DNA of 42,066 bases. It comes from Nitrososphaeraceae archaeon. Lineage in GTDB: Archaea; Thermoproteota; Nitrososphaeria; Nitrososphaerales; Nitrososphaeraceae. This document shows, piece by piece, positions 6,732 to 15,249 of the stretch. Position numbers and translations under genes: made by a program. The first letter of the stretch is position 1. Each line of letters starts with the position of its first letter. Location: assembly GCA_025923455.1 (NCBI GenBank), contig JAICFW010000104.1, positions 1 to 42,066 of the forward strand, given 5' to 3'. Below the pieces are notes generated by a model. The model worked only from the letters and a program-made list of their open reading frames with translations, had not been told where the DNA came from and ran no database searches.

Positions 6732-7397
6732 TCACACCTTTAATGCCCTACTAATCATTATCAGTTCCGGTCCAGTTGTCAAACTACCTACTATCACTGA
6801 GCTGAAGTTGGCTATTATTCCTGATGACAAAAAAGGCGATCCTCCATTGACTGTAGCAGGTTCTGCCTCAATTTGGAGTATTTCAGATATTCTGCTAATT
6901 TCGGCATCATTAGCGTTTGGATGAACAATAGCCCCAGCGTTTGTGGCCACAACCATTGAGCCAACTTGGACGAAACCTCCAATTGACATTCTTTGAATTG
7001 GCACACCAAGAGTATCCTTAATATCTTGATCGACCGCCTCGCCAAACAGGTCCGAAACTATTGCTCCCTTATCATTAGCAGATATTAAGTTACCAATCGC
7101 AGTAAATTTGCTCTTTAATCGTTCTACATTTAATCCTGTCTGCTTAAGTATTTGTATCTCTTCATCTGAAACCGTTGATGGTAACAATATTCCATTGTTA
7201 TTCATAACTGTCATTGGTCCCATCAACCTGGTCCCTGCTATTGAAACATAAATTATTTCTTCAACATCCAAGTACTCTTTCAGTTTTTTAGTCTTTGTCT
7301 CCGCAAACCCAAACGGTAGCAAAAGCGTTTTATCGTTGCACCGTGTAAATAAACCTACGTTTGGACTCCTATAGACATCATATTTGTGGATCACCAA
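6732..7397 (-). CDS. eif6: Translation initiation factor 6 (aIF6)
   Basis: 221 aa; SPNVGLFTRCNDKTLLLP, TRLMGPMTVMNNNGILLPSTVSDEEI, GNLISANDKGAIVS, SMVVATNAGAIVHPNA. Confidence 0.96.
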   Translation of the reverse strand: MVIHKYDVYRSPNVGLFTRCNDKTLLLPFGFAETKTKKLKEYLDVEEIIYVSIAGTRLMGPMTVMNNNGILLPSTVSDEEIQILKQTGLNVERLKSKFTAIGNLISANDKGAIVSDLFGEAVDQDIKDTLGVPIQRMSIGGFVQVGSMVVATNAGAIVHPNANDAEISRISEILQIEAEPATVNGGSPFLSSGIIANFSSVIVGSLTTGPELIMISRALKV

Positions 7398-7585
7398 ATA
7401 TTTGAACTCTCCATCATGTGCACATCATATGGCAATATTTCTCTTATGATCGACTGAGATAAGAAATTATCTACTAAAGCTTAATTAATGACCCTGTAAT
7501 TTCTGGACATAATATAACGCTTGATTCTTTCTATTTGTCAAAAAAATTTCAAATTCGCCAAAAATAAAAAAAGACGGACCTTTGG

Positions 7586-10306
7586 TTATCCGGACATGCA
7601 AGAGCTAAAGCCACATTCGATGCACATATTGCAACCTTCAGTAATAATTAGCCTTGCATTACAGGATGGGCATGCTTCATACTCTATATACTCATTCGGC
7701 GTTGTCGTCACGTTCATTTTCAGCTTCGCTTGAGAAATATTTACTGGGTTATCTGTCGTTTCAATTTCTTCAGTATCTCTAAAGACTTTTTCAACCTGTG
7801 ACATAACATAGTCTTGTTTAATGTTACTATGAATGTGATCAACTACGCTGGCACTTGGTTTCACTATGAATTTTCTCTCCTTATCATTCCCGGTGATATG
7901 TAATACCTGTTCATGTCTGGATCCGTCCCTATACACCGTCACTCCCTTTAATCCCAATTCATGTGATAAAAGATAGGCGGCCTTTATGTCTTCGACCGTA
8001 ACGTCTGATGGCATGTTTATAGTCTTGGCTATTGCATTGCTAATCCATTTCTGCCACACGGCCTGAGCCATTAGATGATCAGTCCAATGTACGTCAATAG
8101 CAGTGACAAATATCTTTTGTAGCCATTCTGGAATTTCAGGCAGCCCTCTTACGGAGCCGTAATTGTTGGCGATCTTAGTCAGGATTTCATCATTGTATAG
8201 ACCATTTTCCTTCAGAATGTTTTCAAATATCTTATTGGTATAAAAGAACCTTCCCACAGTAACTCGCTTTTCAAAAACAAGTGCAAAAACTGGCTCAACA
8301 CCATTCGAACAGTCGGCTATCATCGATAGGGTTCCTGTCGGGGCAATTGTAGTAGTCCATGAATTTCTAATTCCGTACTTTTTTATCTTCTCGACCAATG
8401 AATCCCAATCATATGAGTGATATCGCTTTGGAATTTCATAATATCCTGCCACTGGTATCATTTTTCCTTCGACATAATCAGTCTGGTTGAACAATGGAAA
8501 CGGCCCTCTGCCCTTGGCTAATGCAACACTTTCTTCCATAGTATAGTACGAAAGTGCCTCTGCTACTCTGTTCATAAAGTCATAACCTTCCTTTGAATTG
8601 TATGGTATTTCTAAGGTGAACAATAGATCAGCAATCCCCATTATTCCTAGGCCAATTCTTCTTGTTAATTTTGTATTAAGATCAATCTCTTCCACTGGAT
8701 ACTTATTCATGTCTATGACGTTGTCTAGGAACCTGGTAGAAAGACGAATTGCTTGTTCATATCGTTGCCAATCAAATTCATATTTTCCATCAATAGTCCT
8801 TTTGACAAAATTGGCTAAATTAATGGAACCTAAATTGCATGACTCATATGGATAGAGTGATTGCTCTCCACAAGGGTTTGTTGCTCTAAGTGGTCCTTCT
8901 TTTACATTAATGCAGGGGTTGTATTTGTTGATATTATCGAAGAATATAACACCTGGTTCGGCACTCTTCCAGGCACTAAAAGTTATCAGATCTAATAGCT
9001 GGTGTGAATCAATTTGCTTAACTGGTTCTTGGGTTGTTGGATTTTTAAGCGTGTATTTGTGATTATTTTCGTTAATTATTGATTCCCAGAAATCGCTCCA
9101 AATTCCAACACTTACATTAAAGTTTTCGAAGACACCTGGTTTCGTTTTAGCGGTTACGAATTTTTCTATATCAGGATGCCATGATTCCATTATTCCCATA
9201 TTTGCACCCCTTCTTTTTCCCCCTTGTTTTACCACATCCGTTACTGTATCTATAATTCTCATGAACGAGATCGGTCCCGAAGCTACGCCGGAAGTTGATG
9301 CCACAATATCGCCTTCGGGACGTAGATCGGAGTAATTAATACCAACTCCGCCACCGGACTTGAATATCATTGCTGCATCCGTCGAAGTTTTCATTATCTC
9401 TGACATATCATCTTTCATATCCAATACGAAGCAAGCTGAAAGCTGGCCAAGTTTTGCACCGGCATTCATTAGTGTAGGTGTATTTGGAAGAAAGTCCATT
9501 GATACCATCAAGTTATAATATTCGATAATCCGATCAGAATATTTCGACAATTGTCCCTCTGCAATAAGGCGCAAAAGATCTTTAAAGCTAATTTTTATAT
9601 GTCCACTTTTTGCCAAGTGAATGTAGTGTCTAATCATTGATTCAAAGTGATATTTGTTAAGATAGTGATTTCCAATCTTTAGTTTCAAGTCAAAATCATC
9701 TAATTTCTTGTAATATTCTTCAGCTTCAGTGATATTTTGAACCACTACATCGCTAGAATATACTTCAGAGTCATGGAGCATATCAGGGATTGTTACAAGA
9801 ATTGCGACTCTTTCAAAAAGTGATCTGGGATCCTCAACAATTTCATTATTGCTGTCTCTTAACAAATAGCGAGAAGCTAGGACTCTGAGTGAATTGACGT
9901 CTAAAGCCTTATCCACTTCATCCAGATCTTTCTTGTTAAGAATTTTCTTCTTTTCGTCTCTAACCTTGCGTCTTTCATGTCTGTACAAGATGTAGGCTTT
10001 TGCAGTCTCTGAAAGACCCTCTTCAATCAAGATAGATTCTACCATATCCTGGACATCTTCAACGCTAGGAACTCTATTAGTATCTAAAATAGAAAATTGT
10101 TGGTCCATTTTTTGGACAACTTTTTCGGATAATTTTTCAGCAAGCTTGTAGTCAGCCTTGCCTGCTGCCATTAATGCTTTGTAAATGGCGTTAGAAATCT
10201 TTGAATTATTAAAATCGACTAGCCCTTTATCCCTCTTCCTAATTTGCGCGATTGGTTTCTTGTTCGAGTTTGAAGAATTATTAATTTCGGTAATTTCCTT
10301 TGCCAT
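7586..10306 (-). CDS. nrdJ: Adenosylcobalamin-dependent (class II) ribonucleoside-diphosphate reductase
   Basis: 906 aa; N-terminal ATP-cone (IRKRDKGLVDFNNSKISNAIYKAL), TPTLMNAG, SACFVLDMKD, KSGGGVGINYSDLRPEG, NPCGEQSLYPYESCNLGSINL, TTTIAPTGTLSMIADCSNGVEP, C-terminal CPSCNARLIITEGCNMCIECGFSSC. Confidence 0.96.
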   Translation of the reverse strand: MAKEITEINNSSNSNKKPIAQIRKRDKGLVDFNNSKISNAIYKALMAAGKADYKLAEKLSEKVVQKMDQQFSILDTNRVPSVEDVQDMVESILIEEGLSETAKAYILYRHERRKVRDEKKKILNKKDLDEVDKALDVNSLRVLASRYLLRDSNNEIVEDPRSLFERVAILVTIPDMLHDSEVYSSDVVVQNITEAEEYYKKLDDFDLKLKIGNHYLNKYHFESMIRHYIHLAKSGHIKISFKDLLRLIAEGQLSKYSDRIIEYYNLMVSMDFLPNTPTLMNAGAKLGQLSACFVLDMKDDMSEIMKTSTDAAMIFKSGGGVGINYSDLRPEGDIVASTSGVASGPISFMRIIDTVTDVVKQGGKRRGANMGIMESWHPDIEKFVTAKTKPGVFENFNVSVGIWSDFWESIINENNHKYTLKNPTTQEPVKQIDSHQLLDLITFSAWKSAEPGVIFFDNINKYNPCINVKEGPLRATNPCGEQSLYPYESCNLGSINLANFVKRTIDGKYEFDWQRYEQAIRLSTRFLDNVIDMNKYPVEEIDLNTKLTRRIGLGIMGIADLLFTLEIPYNSKEGYDFMNRVAEALSYYTMEESVALAKGRGPFPLFNQTDYVEGKMIPVAGYYEIPKRYHSYDWDSLVEKIKKYGIRNSWTTTIAPTGTLSMIADCSNGVEPVFALVFEKRVTVGRFFYTNKIFENILKENGLYNDEILTKIANNYGSVRGLPEIPEWLQKIFVTAIDVHWTDHLMAQAVWQKWISNAIAKTINMPSDVTVEDIKAAYLLSHELGLKGVTVYRDGSRHEQVLHITGNDKERKFIVKPSASVVDHIHSNIKQDYVMSQVEKVFRDTEEIETTDNPVNISQAKLKMNVTTTPNEYIEYEACPSCNARLIITEGCNMCIECGFSSCMSG

Positions 10307-10658
10307 AACGCATTATACAGCTAGACTCTAGCTTAAAAATATTATTTTACTAAATAATTCGACAAGATGCACTCAAGGTTTAAATTATTTGATCTGGCAT
10401 GATTATATTGTAAATTAACTGTTCCATTACCTTAAGCAACCTTGAAAGAATCAACATCCTATGGTTCCGACTTTTTCGTGCATAGGTGATTACATCCAAA
10501 GTGCATTCATGCTGGTCTATTAATTAGTTAATTTACACAATTTGGGAACAGTGACAGCTTAGGAGCAGTGTTCTTGCCAGCTATTTTCTCGAGCATTTTT
10601 CTAGTCCTGCTAATTCGTAAAAAATAAAGCTAATGTCTGGTTCTTTAATGAAATTGTA

Positions 10659-10681
10659 ACGTCCATACACAATGTGGACGT
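10659..10681. other. Inverted repeat ACGTCCA-N9-TGGACGT downstream of the NrdD-like gene
   Basis: Perfect 7-bp arms about 30 bp past the minus-strand stop; could be an RNA 3' stem or protein site. Confidence 0.4.
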
Positions 10682-10709
10682 CAAGCTTTGGATTCAGAAG
10701 ATTACCTAT

Positions 10710-12818
10710 CTACAGCTGTGCAAAATTAGTGGAGCCGCACCTTCGACATACTTCAGATGATACCGGCGTCCTTGTTCCGCAGGAGCTACATATTTTATTA
10801 CTGAAGACTAGTCTAAAGAAATTCAGATCAAATGATTTGTCAATGCAATCTTTCATCTCAGTATCGGTAAGATCACCAATGTCTACATTAAGTGAAACTC
10901 CCCCACTTAGTAATTTATCGATCAAGTTACTTGATTCTATTATGGGACCAGTATTCGAAAGTAGATCTCTCCCATTTATGAGAAGCCCTTGTGAGTATGA
11001 CTTTATCATCGCATCATCATCAGATTGATTATACAAGTTCCCATATTTTTCTGAGTCAAGAGAAGCCAATCGTGTACTACTATCATCCGTAATCATAGCG
11101 ATTCGTATAGACTCATCTCCAGCTAGCTTTCCTTGGTCTGAAGCTACTTCAACTGCTGTAAGCAGGACCTTCTTGATAATCGCCTCTCCATCGGATTCAT
11201 GTCCCAATATATTGTATACCGACTCTCTTATTCCTGTCAAATTAATTACAAGGTTCATCTTGCTCAGTTGCATCATTTGTGTAACATTGGCTGTTATTGG
11301 AAGCATTTCTCGTCGTATCATCTCCAGAATAGAGTTCTTTCTTGCCAGCAAGGCAGAGATAGCCGGTTTAATCATCAATGCCAATCTAGCTCTGAAATAA
11401 GTTTCGTCCTTATTGGATTGATAAGCTAGTCGTGGTAGGTTAATAGCTAAAGAGTGTAGGCTTACAACTGAACTTGATTTTTCGTCAGATACAGTTTTTA
11501 CAACTCCTAGATGACTTCTATAGTTCTTTGATACTGACAGAATACCTCCATGTTTGACGATATCTCCAATCAAATCTGCGTTTGTACTTAGCGATTCCTT
11601 ATCATTACCAACTAAGGCTATTGCAATAGTGGGTAAAGGCGTATACTCCAAATATTTCAGATAAGCTGCCAACACGGGTCTAGTAATTGATTTACATTGA
11701 GCTGAAATAGGGAATGTAAAAACTGGAAAACCAGATAAAGAATACGATCTGGATATTGATGATGATACAAATGCCCTGGAAAAAGCCGATTCTATTTCTT
11801 CATCACTTGCTTGGATTTTATTTGAAATGGTAGAAACAAAGCTATCAAGTATTATCTCCCTAGAAGTTTCCCTGCTTAAGACCGAAATCAACACAGGCAA
11901 AACTGCAGTTATGTCATCTAGAGTCTGAATAGGTTTCACCCTTGAAACATTCAAGTATTTTCCTTTGAAGTTTAAGCCATTTTCAATGATATTCTTTGTA
12001 TCAATGAATACTGTGTCCGGCATAAGGTTCCAAAGTCCAGTGTTCGAAATGTTTAGTTCACCAGCAAGATGCATATCAGTTATGTCTTTGGGTAACATGT
12101 TAAACAACAAGTTTTCGGAAAAAACCGCAAGAGAAGTTTCCGACAAAATACCCTCTACACCATTCTTGCTTAATAAGGGGTTGTTAAACATATCAGAGAT
12201 ATCAGATCCCGGAATACCCAGCCTGGCTAATTTCGATCTAAATTCCTCGTAGCCATGCTCTATCAAGATTGAATTCACGGTCTCTCTAATAAGAGAGGAT
12301 GTAAGGTACACAGTTTGGAATTTGTAAACCTTGTTTTCCACCTCTTCAGTAATCTTGTGTGCCTGCTCAAGAGGCATATTTGCCTCCCTAACTAACGATT
12401 GAGTTATCCTATTTGAATTAAATTCTTCTATTGAATGTCTAGAAGTTCGTACATACATTTTTCCGCTTTCGATAATGGATCTCTCTTCAATTTGTCTTGC
12501 TAGACTCAGAACTAATTTCCCGAGGTTGGTAATAGTATACCTTCTTTCTGCTTTATTTAATGCTACAAGAGATTGCCTCAAAAGCTTCCTTAAATGGTAA
12601 GCAAATTTACCCGACTCTTTTTTAGATTTAAAACCAGCCAACGATTTCAATTCTGAATAAGTTAATGGACCTTTGGAATTTAGAATGCGAAGTATATCTA
12701 TTCTATTCGGACTAGCCATTACGGAGAAAATCATCCTAACTCTTTTTGCCGCTTGTAAAATCCCAGTAGGTTTGGATTCTGATTGTGTTATTAGATCATG
12801 GCTAGCCTCTATCTCCAT
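10710..12818 (-). CDS. Winged-helix (ArsR-like) + ATP-cone + NrdD-like protein lacking glycyl-radical motif; candidate RNR regulator
   Basis: 702 aa; wHTH residues about 20-120 (MASPNRIDILRILNSKGPLTYSELKSLAGF...FAYHLRKLL), ATP-cone about 122-220 (KMYVRTSRHSIEEFNSNRITQSLVREA...IRETVNSILIEHGYEEFRSKLARLG), NrdD-like body (SLAINLPRLAYQSNKDETYFRARLALMIK) and C-terminal CSSCGTRTPVSSEVCRRCGSTNFAQL. Confidence 0.8.
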   Translation of the reverse strand: MEIEASHDLITQSESKPTGILQAAKRVRMIFSVMASPNRIDILRILNSKGPLTYSELKSLAGFKSKKESGKFAYHLRKLLRQSLVALNKAERRYTITNLGKLVLSLARQIEERSIIESGKMYVRTSRHSIEEFNSNRITQSLVREANMPLEQAHKITEEVENKVYKFQTVYLTSSLIRETVNSILIEHGYEEFRSKLARLGIPGSDISDMFNNPLLSKNGVEGILSETSLAVFSENLLFNMLPKDITDMHLAGELNISNTGLWNLMPDTVFIDTKNIIENGLNFKGKYLNVSRVKPIQTLDDITAVLPVLISVLSRETSREIILDSFVSTISNKIQASDEEIESAFSRAFVSSSISRSYSLSGFPVFTFPISAQCKSITRPVLAAYLKYLEYTPLPTIAIALVGNDKESLSTNADLIGDIVKHGGILSVSKNYRSHLGVVKTVSDEKSSSVVSLHSLAINLPRLAYQSNKDETYFRARLALMIKPAISALLARKNSILEMIRREMLPITANVTQMMQLSKMNLVINLTGIRESVYNILGHESDGEAIIKKVLLTAVEVASDQGKLAGDESIRIAMITDDSSTRLASLDSEKYGNLYNQSDDDAMIKSYSQGLLINGRDLLSNTGPIIESSNLIDKLLSGGVSLNVDIGDLTDTEMKDCIDKSFDLNFFRLVFSNKICSSCGTRTPVSSEVCRRCGSTNFAQL

Positions 12819-12919
12819 CTCACCCGATATTATCTTGAGATAATTTAAAATTGGGTCGTAAATAGTTATTGACTAACAGTACAAAACAATTTACCTATGA
12901 GGCATCGGAAAAGTAAAAT

Positions 12920-13540
12920 CTAAATCATTACTTCGTTTTCCTCTAATAAGGAATCATATTCATTTTTGTTTTTGATAACATTGATAGTCGCGGGTATGTC
13001 TGGTAGCTTTTGTCTTGTCTCTTCCTCAACATTCTGTTCCACTTCACTCAGAATTTTCAGTGCTTCTTCATCTACATGCATGGGTATTTTTACTTCTGGA
13101 TTGACATTGTAATTTAGAATTTCTGATGATGCGTTTGTAACATCATTAAGTACTTCGTGTGCCGTGGGTATTACCATTGAAATATCTTTCTCGATATCTT
13201 TTATCAAATCTATCGTTGGATTTATTGTATCCATTATGACAGTAAACTCACCTATTATGGTTGAACGCAGAGCTACGACCTCAAGGGACATTATCATGTT
13301 TCTTGTCGTATGCTGAACTCTATGTATATTCACAAGTTCACTTGCCAGTGCCTTGGCTCGTATATTGTTACCCTCTTTGATGTTTTCTACAATTTGTTTT
13401 CTAAAGTGAGTATTCATTACATCAAATTTCTTTGAGAGCTTGTTCAACTTTGTAATCTGAATACTAATAACCTGAGCAGCATTAGAGAGGTCGTTTTGAA
13501 GCTGAGTGTGATGCTGCATTAAGAAAATATTATTTTGCAT
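12920..13540 (-). CDS. cdvB: CdvB/Snf7 (ESCRT-III) family protein
   Basis: 206 aa helical protein; LNKLSKKFDVMNTHFRKQIVENIKEGNNIRAKALASELVNIHRVQHTTRNMIMSLEVVALRSTII matches the archaeal ESCRT-III core; possible MIM2-like KLPDIP near the C-terminus. Confidence 0.82.
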   Translation of the reverse strand: MQNNIFLMQHHTQLQNDLSNAAQVISIQITKLNKLSKKFDVMNTHFRKQIVENIKEGNNIRAKALASELVNIHRVQHTTRNMIMSLEVVALRSTIIGEFTVIMDTINPTIDLIKDIEKDISMVIPTAHEVLNDVTNASSEILNYNVNPEVKIPMHVDEEALKILSEVEQNVEEETRQKLPDIPATINVIKNKNEYDSLLEENEVMI

Positions 13541-13689
13541 GAATGTAAGAATAATTGTCAGTCTCTGTCAACAAAAGAGTAACATAAAGCTAATCTAACT
13601 AAATTCTAGTATATGGACAAATCTAGCCTTTACACAAATAAGAGGAGGAGAAAAATTCGTACTACGTACTACTTTAAAAAAGAAAAATT

Positions 13690-14079
13690 CTAGTTTCCTT
13701 GTTTTTCCAAAGTAAGTCCATGTTTGGCATCATACCCCACAACATTCACAGTAGATCCAATAGGGAGATCCGCTGGCATTTTGATTCCCGGTAGAAATCC
13801 CGATGCGGAAAAAGGAGCGTCTCGCAGCTTGAACACTACCCAAGCATAGGAGCTTATGTCCTCGAAACCTTCAGGGGCCACCGCCTGAATTGTATGAGTC
13901 ACGACTGTACCAATCCCAGGAAATTCAATAAATTCGAAATCGCTTTTGGAACATCCACTACAATAATACATTGTCTCAAGCATTACTTTTCCACAATTTT
14001 TGCACTTGTTTGCTAGTATCATTCCATTTTTTGCTGATTGGATAAATCTTTCATGAGTACTAGAATTTTTTTCCACCAA
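13690..14079 (-). CDS. DUF35 OB-fold/zinc-ribbon acyl-CoA-associated protein
   Basis: 129 aa; CKNCGKVMLETMYYCSGC zinc ribbon, then FEFIEFPGIGTVVTHTIQ OB domain; next to thiolase. Confidence 0.93.
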   Translation of the reverse strand: MVEKNSSTHERFIQSAKNGMILANKCKNCGKVMLETMYYCSGCSKSDFEFIEFPGIGTVVTHTIQAVAPEGFEDISSYAWVVFKLRDAPFSASGFLPGIKMPADLPIGSTVNVVGYDAKHGLTLEKQGN

Positions 14080-14091
14080 AATACACCAAGA

Positions 14092-15249
14092 TTATACTTT
14101 TTGAAAGACATGAACTGCTGCGCTTGCTCCGGTGGCACCAAAGTTATGCGTCAGGGCTATTTCGGCATCCTTTACGGATCTCTCTCCAGCTTTACCTGTA
14201 AATTGTTCGTAAACTTCCACGACTTGTCCTATGCCAGTAGCTCCAATAGGATGACCTTTGGATTTTAGTCCTCCTGACGGATTAATTGGTATTTCCCCTG
14301 TTCTTTTAGTAATTCCTTCTCTCGCGGCTACACCGCCCGTCCCCTTCTTGAAGAATCCCAAGTCTTCAATGTCAATTATCTCTGCAATTGTAAAGCAATC
14401 ATGAACTTCAGCGAAGTCAATATCCTTGGGAGTCACTCCTGCCATCTTGTATGCTTGATTTGCTGCAATAATTGTACTTGGGATGGTTGTGATATCTTCT
14501 CGTGATTGGACAGCCGCAGGAGACCCACCTCTTCCCGAACCAATAACTCTTACATAATCGTTACCAATCTTTTTGGCAAATTCCTCAGTACATAAAATTA
14601 CTGCCGATGCACCATCAGAAAATGGACAACAATCATAGACCTTTAATGGAGATGCTACAACAGGGGAGTTTAGCACATCATCTACTGTTATACTTTTCCT
14701 GATGTGTGCTTTTGGATTTAACAACCCATTTTCATGATTCTTGATTGCAACATATGCCAAGTCCTCCTCAGTTGCTTTGTATTTATTTAGATAAGCTCTG
14801 GCGATAGAGGCAAACAGTCCTGGAAATGAAGCTCCATTGCCACCCTCATAAAAGAAGTCTGAACAATACGAAAATAGTGTGGTACTCAAAGTAGTTCCAG
14901 TATGTGTTACCTTTTCTACACCAACGCCCAACACACAATCATAAAAACCAGCAGCAACGTTTGCATAAGCCTCTCTAAACATCACCGAACCTGAGCCGCA
15001 AGCAGACTCAATTGTTAATCCGGGGACATGAGGAATCCCAAGGTTGCTCATAAGTACTGGTGCCATATGTACTTGTTTGTCAGCAACGCCGAATACGTTT
15101 GAGATATAACCTGCTTGAATATCCTTTGGCGTAATTCCAGCCGAGTCAATAGCACCTTTTGCCGCATCGAGTCCCAGCTCAATGATACTTTGGCTTAGTT
15201 TACCATATTTTGTACTTCCAGCTCCGAGAACGCATACATTATTTACCAT
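14092..15249 (-). CDS. Thiolase family protein (acetyl-CoA C-acetyltransferase-like)
   Basis: 385 aa; TIESACGSGSVMFREAYANVAAG (active Cys), EVHDCFTIAEIIDIEDLGF, NPSGGLKSKGHPIGATGIGQVVE. Confidence 0.95.
   Translation of the reverse strand: MVNNVCVLGAGSTKYGKLSQSIIELGLDAAKGAIDSAGITPKDIQAGYISNVFGVADKQVHMAPVLMSNLGIPHVPGLTIESACGSGSVMFREAYANVAAGFYDCVLGVGVEKVTHTGTTLSTTLFSYCSDFFYEGGNGASFPGLFASIARAYLNKYKATEEDLAYVAIKNHENGLLNPKAHIRKSITVDDVLNSPVVASPLKVYDCCPFSDGASAVILCTEEFAKKIGNDYVRVIGSGRGGSPAAVQSREDITTIPSTIIAANQAYKMAGVTPKDIDFAEVHDCFTIAEIIDIEDLGFFKKGTGGVAAREGITKRTGEIPINPSGGLKSKGHPIGATGIGQVVEVYEQFTGKAGERSVKDAEIALTHNFGATGASAAVHVFQKV

Follow-up and report, generated by a model that had tools for sequence, protein, structure and literature searches.

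How do archaea without NrdR match the expression of ribonucleotide reductase (RNR) to the supply of dNTPs? NrdR is rare in archaea (PMC9110341), and the locus described here offers a candidate for its role. The window, a stretch of 42,066 nucleotides from a Nitrososphaeraceae archaeon (contig JAICFW010000104.1), encodes a protein of 702 amino acids that an earlier note on this DNA had read as an RNR relative repurposed as a transcription factor. Our analysis indicates that the protein, a dead paralogue of NrdD with a winged helix joined to its N-terminus, probably serves as a transcription regulator of RNR. The features of the locus are collected in Table 1.

Table 1. Features of the regulator-nrdJ locus, with positions counted from the first letter of the window
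Feature	Position	Strand	Remarks
nrdJ, adenosylcobalamin-dependent class II RNR with its own ATP-cone, presumed target	7586..10306	(-)	906 aa
Regulator-nrdJ gap, presumed nrdJ promoter	10307..10709	(-)	403 bp
Palindrome AGCTAGAGTCTAGCT, candidate operator	10319..10333	(-)	close to where nrdJ transcription should start; partial compensation in relatives
Imperfect dyad ATTATTTAGTAAAATAAT, candidate operator	10341..10358	(-)	conserved in the genus; just upstream of TATA-like TTTTTA
wHTH-ATP-cone-NrdD-like pseudoenzyme, candidate RNR transcription regulator	10710..12818	(-)	702 aa, ATG start
C-terminal four-Cys zinc ribbon (C677, C680, C691, C694)	10737..10790	(-)	alignment
Degenerate NrdD body	10815..12182	(-)	aa 213-668; scaffold residues kept
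Cysteine (finger) loop equivalent SKNYRSHLGVVKTVS, no Cys	11487..11531	(-)	sequence, alignment
T269, position of E. coli NrdD C175	12012..12014	(-)	alignment
ATP-cone	12240..12458	(-)	aa 121-193; PF03477
Winged helix-turn-helix (DUF7347/HTH_20)	12507..12731	(-)	aa 30-104; Pfam above cut-off
Putative recognition-helix segment GFKSKKESGKFAYHLRKL	12582..12635	(-)	nearly invariant within the order
Regulator's own promoter region	12819..12893	(-)	69/75 bases invariant, five congeneric species

The protein is composed of a winged helix (wHTH, about residues 28-112), an ATP-cone, an NrdD fold and a terminal four-cysteine zinc ribbon, and ends in CRRCGSTNFAQL. Consistent with the ArsR-like wHTH that the earlier note had placed at the N-terminus, DUF7347 (PF24038, 40.2 bits, cut-off 27.6) and HTH_20 (PF12840, residues 34-86, 32.6 bits, cut-off 27) both matched above their Pfam cut-offs; the protein remained below the NCBIfam ArsR/SmtB cut-off. 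The core G-K/R-F-x-Y-H-L of the putative recognition helix is preserved in the relatives shown. The ATP-cone, likewise predicted by that note, scored 45.4 bits (cut-off 25.8), and the C-terminal half of NrdD was recovered with 64.2 bits (NRDD, PF13597, residues 445-698, cut-off 26.2). The NrdD equivalogue model TIGR02487 reached 58.3 bits, far under its cut-off of 326.

The structure was modelled with AlphaFold2 from the pseudoenzyme and 12 named relatives, which gave a pLDDT of about 80 in the body and low values at the N-terminus; without an alignment the pLDDT was 39 and the model of no use. The low confidence of the wHTH and ATP-cone probably arises because the alignment rows barely vary there. 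The PDB matches listed by Foldseek for the model were all ribonucleotide reductases, class III first, and the top matches extended over about 620 columns (E 4e-17). The predicted NrdD fold therefore spans the entire body of the protein, beyond the C-terminal half matched by Pfam. Scaffold residues of NrdD are retained as well (INLPR, G529, E532, D588, Y608 and GG639-640).

The RNR fold and the zinc ribbon could be taken to mean that the protein is an active but divergent class III RNR, its annotation as an anaerobic reductase being correct. To this reading we assign almost no probability, as the residues on which catalysis depends are missing. We aligned 15 intact NrdDs with 58 orthologues from the order (Nitrososphaerales) and 34 deeper relatives. 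None of the 58 orthologues carries cysteine at the positions of E. coli NrdD C175, where most have threonine, or C384, in agreement with the cysteine-free loop before INLPR noted earlier for the window's protein. The neighbouring CC (387/388) is kept in none of them either, and the NxN flap of NrdD (PMC11226230) is missing. The equivalent of the glycyl-radical residue G681 is absent from all 58; the protein stops after the zinc ribbon, where NrdDs continue into the glycyl-radical loop, as had been proposed. The four zinc cysteines, by contrast with these catalytic positions, are kept in 58, 58, 57 and 57 of the 58 orthologues, which bears out the four-Cys motif of the NrdD-like body; no other cysteine reaches 90% conservation across the order. 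No activase NrdG (TIGR02491) was found above cut-off in the window's own genome or in 60 relatives (0/61), which extends the earlier observation of none nearby, and none of nine order members tested has an intact NrdD.

Judged by these residues, the pseudoenzyme is no reductase and has lost catalysis, and the annotation as an active class III enzyme was rejected. What the earlier note had read from one sequence holds across the 58 orthologues and nearly all of the 34 deeper relatives; an intact active-site cysteine with a radical glycine, the finding that it had set against its own reading, occurs in none of the 58. The deeper relatives have eroded unevenly: the glycine is kept in four, a single cysteine aligns at position 384, and C175 is found in none. 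In five short relatives, measuring 598-621 aa in those with a clear start, the zinc ribbon is missing as well, and the wHTH and ATP-cone are retained. In a search for a still shorter form with the wHTH and ATP-cone only, the shortest frames covering both domains were about 540-600 aa.

The pseudoenzyme, which occurs in archaea of soil and sea, is present in 58 of the 61 genomes in the sample of relatives, and in 40 of 41 when only good genomes are counted. At the level of the phylum, 217 of 300 genomes gave a match at E 0.001, of which the weakest (about E 1e-4) may reflect only HTH similarity; the named matches are mostly MAGs of Nitrososphaerales or Thaumarchaeota. One genome contains, besides an intact copy on contig C123, fragments interrupted by stop codons (G036:C159:4792-5499) that resemble a broken duplicate of the gene. 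In a tree of 79 rows, rooted at the midpoint only, a branch with 100% support had every NrdD to the same side of it; the pseudoenzymes of the order came out as a single group, likewise at 100%.

NrdR (TIGR00244) was detected neither in the window's own genome nor in the order members sampled. Above the TIGR00244 cut-off it occurs in 15 of 200 phylum genomes, all of them outside the order. In some genomes of family f18, NrdR and the wHTH-NrdD protein coexist, which counts against the regulator reading. One f18 genome, G061, encodes a true NrdR (G061:C8:13747-14178) just before an intact NrdD and the wHTH-NrdD protein on another contig; both regulators can therefore coexist.

Selection has acted very unevenly on the domains of the pseudoenzyme. 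In all four congeneric species pairs compared, dN of the wHTH was 0 at dS values of about 0.5-2, and ω of the ATP-cone was about 0.004 or less where computable; for the NrdD body, ω was 0.05-0.14 in the same pairs. Positions conserved at 90% or more across the order number 56 of 85 in the wHTH, 43 of 97 in the ATP-cone and 52 of 490 in the body. By these measures constraint is strongest in the wHTH and ATP-cone, suggesting that evolution has protected the domains presumed to touch DNA and to bind nucleotides. Within the ATP-cone, the alignment shows equivalents of the NrdR residues V48, E56 and K62 (PMC9110341) to be conserved, together with those of the arginines of the C-terminal helix (PMC11226230). 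NrdR K50/R51, at phosphate-contact positions, are not kept and are replaced by T/S, and the D-G turn is missing; both points speak against the regulator reading. Archaeal NrdDs are similar at the two positions, with T or R followed by S or T. Taken as a whole, the residue pattern makes nucleotide binding by the ATP-cone likely.

The proposed link to RNR comes from the neighbourhood of the gene. As the earlier note had stated, nrdJ is the next gene downstream on the same strand, though 403 bp lie between the two. Among order loci with at least 1.2 kb of downstream flank, the next same-strand gene is an RNR in 50 of 52. In the window and in most relatives it is an NrdJ with ATP-cone, the relatives' being 43-100% identical to that of the window; in three loci, the downstream NrdJ has no ATP-cone, and in one it is of bacterial type with Ribonuc_red_2_N. 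At least three kinds of NrdJ thus occupy this slot within the order. Outside the order, an RNR is adjacent in 6 of 33 loci (five intact NrdDs, one NrdJ); its absence from the remaining 27 is a further point against the regulator reading. In five loci an intact NrdD immediately follows the wHTH-NrdD gene, which makes neighbours of a dead and a live paralogue.

Downstream pyrB, in the loci where it can be seen, is mostly encoded on the opposite strand; its distance is about 2.4-3.7 kb if the slot contains an RNR. Ten loci have an empty slot, with pyrB at 1-303 bp from the regulator on the opposite strand. These belong to genomes that we call Bathyarchaeia-like from their kinship and gene content; in such relatives the slot beside pyrB holds an intact NrdD or nothing. 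The regulator has thus held its position even as the adjoining RNR changed or disappeared, which points to a functional tie with RNR, although the synteny may simply have been inherited.

Such a tie might also be post-translational, with the dead NrdD bound to NrdJ and supplying an ATP-cone in trans; the wHTH would then serve for dimerisation, or just for autoregulation. The adjacency to nrdJ, the downstream NrdJs without an ATP-cone and the retention of zinc ribbon and scaffold would all agree with a partner of this kind. However, the window's NrdJ already carries an ATP-cone, and the RNR partner changes between unrelated types, NrdD among them, while the wHTH hardly varies; such constancy is easier to reconcile with binding to DNA than with binding to a single protein surface. 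We therefore consider a partner in trans improbable.

Further support for DNA binding comes from the regulator's own promoter. In five congeneric species, 92% of its bases are invariant, compared with 75% of the wHTH and ATP-cone coding sequence and 61% of the body coding sequence, and a block at 12836-12875 is invariant throughout (40/40). Upstream of the neighbouring CdvB-like gene, the corresponding value is 77%. The regulator promoter of other genera has a 21-bp element, TTTACAAAGTAGTTTTAATCA, that overlaps a TATA-like box, and a regulon search with this element at up to two mismatches matched the own promoter only. A conserved promoter with an element unique to this gene fits autoregulation, which these comparisons suggest for the pseudoenzyme gene. 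The wHTH presumably binds DNA in a sequence-specific way, given how well both it and this promoter are conserved.

The nrdJ gene probably also has a promoter of its own, given the length of the gap that separates it from the regulator stop in the window; in some close relatives this distance is 69-89 bp. The presumed nrdJ promoter, which includes the two genus-level dyads, is invariant at 44 of 69 positions. An Rfam search over 7000-14500 gave no match and hence no cobalamin riboswitch at nrdJ. An operator common to the own and nrdJ promoters was not found, which weighs against the regulator reading: the best 16-mers rose above shuffles no more than sporadically, with 1 of 31 species beating all 15 shuffled controls. 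A likeness of the two promoters within the genus, based on TTAGT, was considered and rejected as not significant. That nrdJ is a direct target is thus something we infer from position.

Considering that the conserved element is confined to the own promoter, that the nrdJ promoter has no operator in common with it, and that the regulator persists where the RNR slot is empty, the protein might be a DNA-binding regulator with mainly non-RNR targets (its own gene and, for example, replication, division or pyrimidine genes), its adjacency to RNR being inherited synteny. The CdvB-like gene often found directly upstream would suit this as well. Yet the slot has repeatedly received a new RNR while the regulator beside it remained the same one, the body itself is an RNR and the sensor an ATP-cone, so that we hold this explanation to be rather unlikely. 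In the window, the CdvB-like (Snf7/ESCRT-III) gene occupies 12920-13540(-), on the same strand as the regulator; it is found upstream in most loci of the same family and not in family f9. A link between cell division and dNTP supply is possible.

The proposal of a regulator, inferential in the earlier note, is supported by the extreme selection on wHTH and ATP-cone, by the persistence of the gene beside RNR through replacements, and by order members sampled without NrdR. Together, these observations make a strong circumstantial case that an RNR has given rise to a transcriptional regulator that senses ATP/dATP. In the mechanism that we propose, the ATP-cone would sense the balance of ATP and dATP, and nucleotide binding would alter how the protein dimerises or oligomerises, the dead NrdD body acting as the dimerisation scaffold. 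The change in assembly would switch DNA binding by the wHTH at the adjoining RNR gene and the own promoter. Repression when dATP is plentiful would be the simplest mode, assumed here by analogy with NrdR, and the pseudoenzyme would fill in these archaea the role of the bacterial protein.

NrdR, the bacterial RNR repressor, likewise joins a DNA-binding domain and an ATP-cone in one RNR-linked protein. It differs in binding DNA through an N-terminal zinc ribbon and in having no RNR body, whereas the pseudoenzyme has a winged helix, and its zinc ribbon is C-terminal and derived from NrdD. As the earlier note had proposed, its origin is a different one, ATP-cone and body coming from NrdD. It has the ATP-cone but not the TIGR00244 architecture (zinc ribbon then ATP-cone, about 150 aa). 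With NrdD (class III RNR; PF13597, TIGR02487) it shares the fold of the whole body, the ATP-cone and the four-Cys zinc site, but neither the two active-site cysteines, the radical glycine and its domain, the flap nor an NrdG partner, and a wHTH has been added. ArsR-like or DUF7347 winged-helix regulators, whose domain it carries above curated cut-offs, are usually short and stand-alone, whereas this wHTH is part of a fusion that also contains an ATP-cone and a degenerate RNR. As far as can be read from its sequence, the pseudoenzyme works like NrdR but stands outside the NrdR family, and descends from NrdD but no longer belongs to it. The novelty would lie in a nucleotide-sensing RNR regulator built from different parts than NrdR. 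None of the papers listed in our literature search describes an NrdD-derived regulator; prior notice, for example in subscription journals or arCOG annotation, is possible.

We give even chances to the broader proposal that a single ancient NrdD-derived winged-helix pseudoenzyme serves Nitrososphaeria and Bathyarchaeia-like archaea as their general, dNTP-responsive regulator of RNR. It would have stayed in place while the RNR under its control changed several times, both from one class to another (III and II) and from one class II type to another. For the ammonia-oxidising archaea, it is a near-universal candidate that can be tested with one protein and one promoter. If the regulator reading is true, we know of no earlier case of an RNR homologue that acts as a transcription factor. 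An enzyme family would then have turned into a regulator of its own function, in a clear case of a pseudoenzyme outlasting the repeated replacement of the enzyme that it controls.
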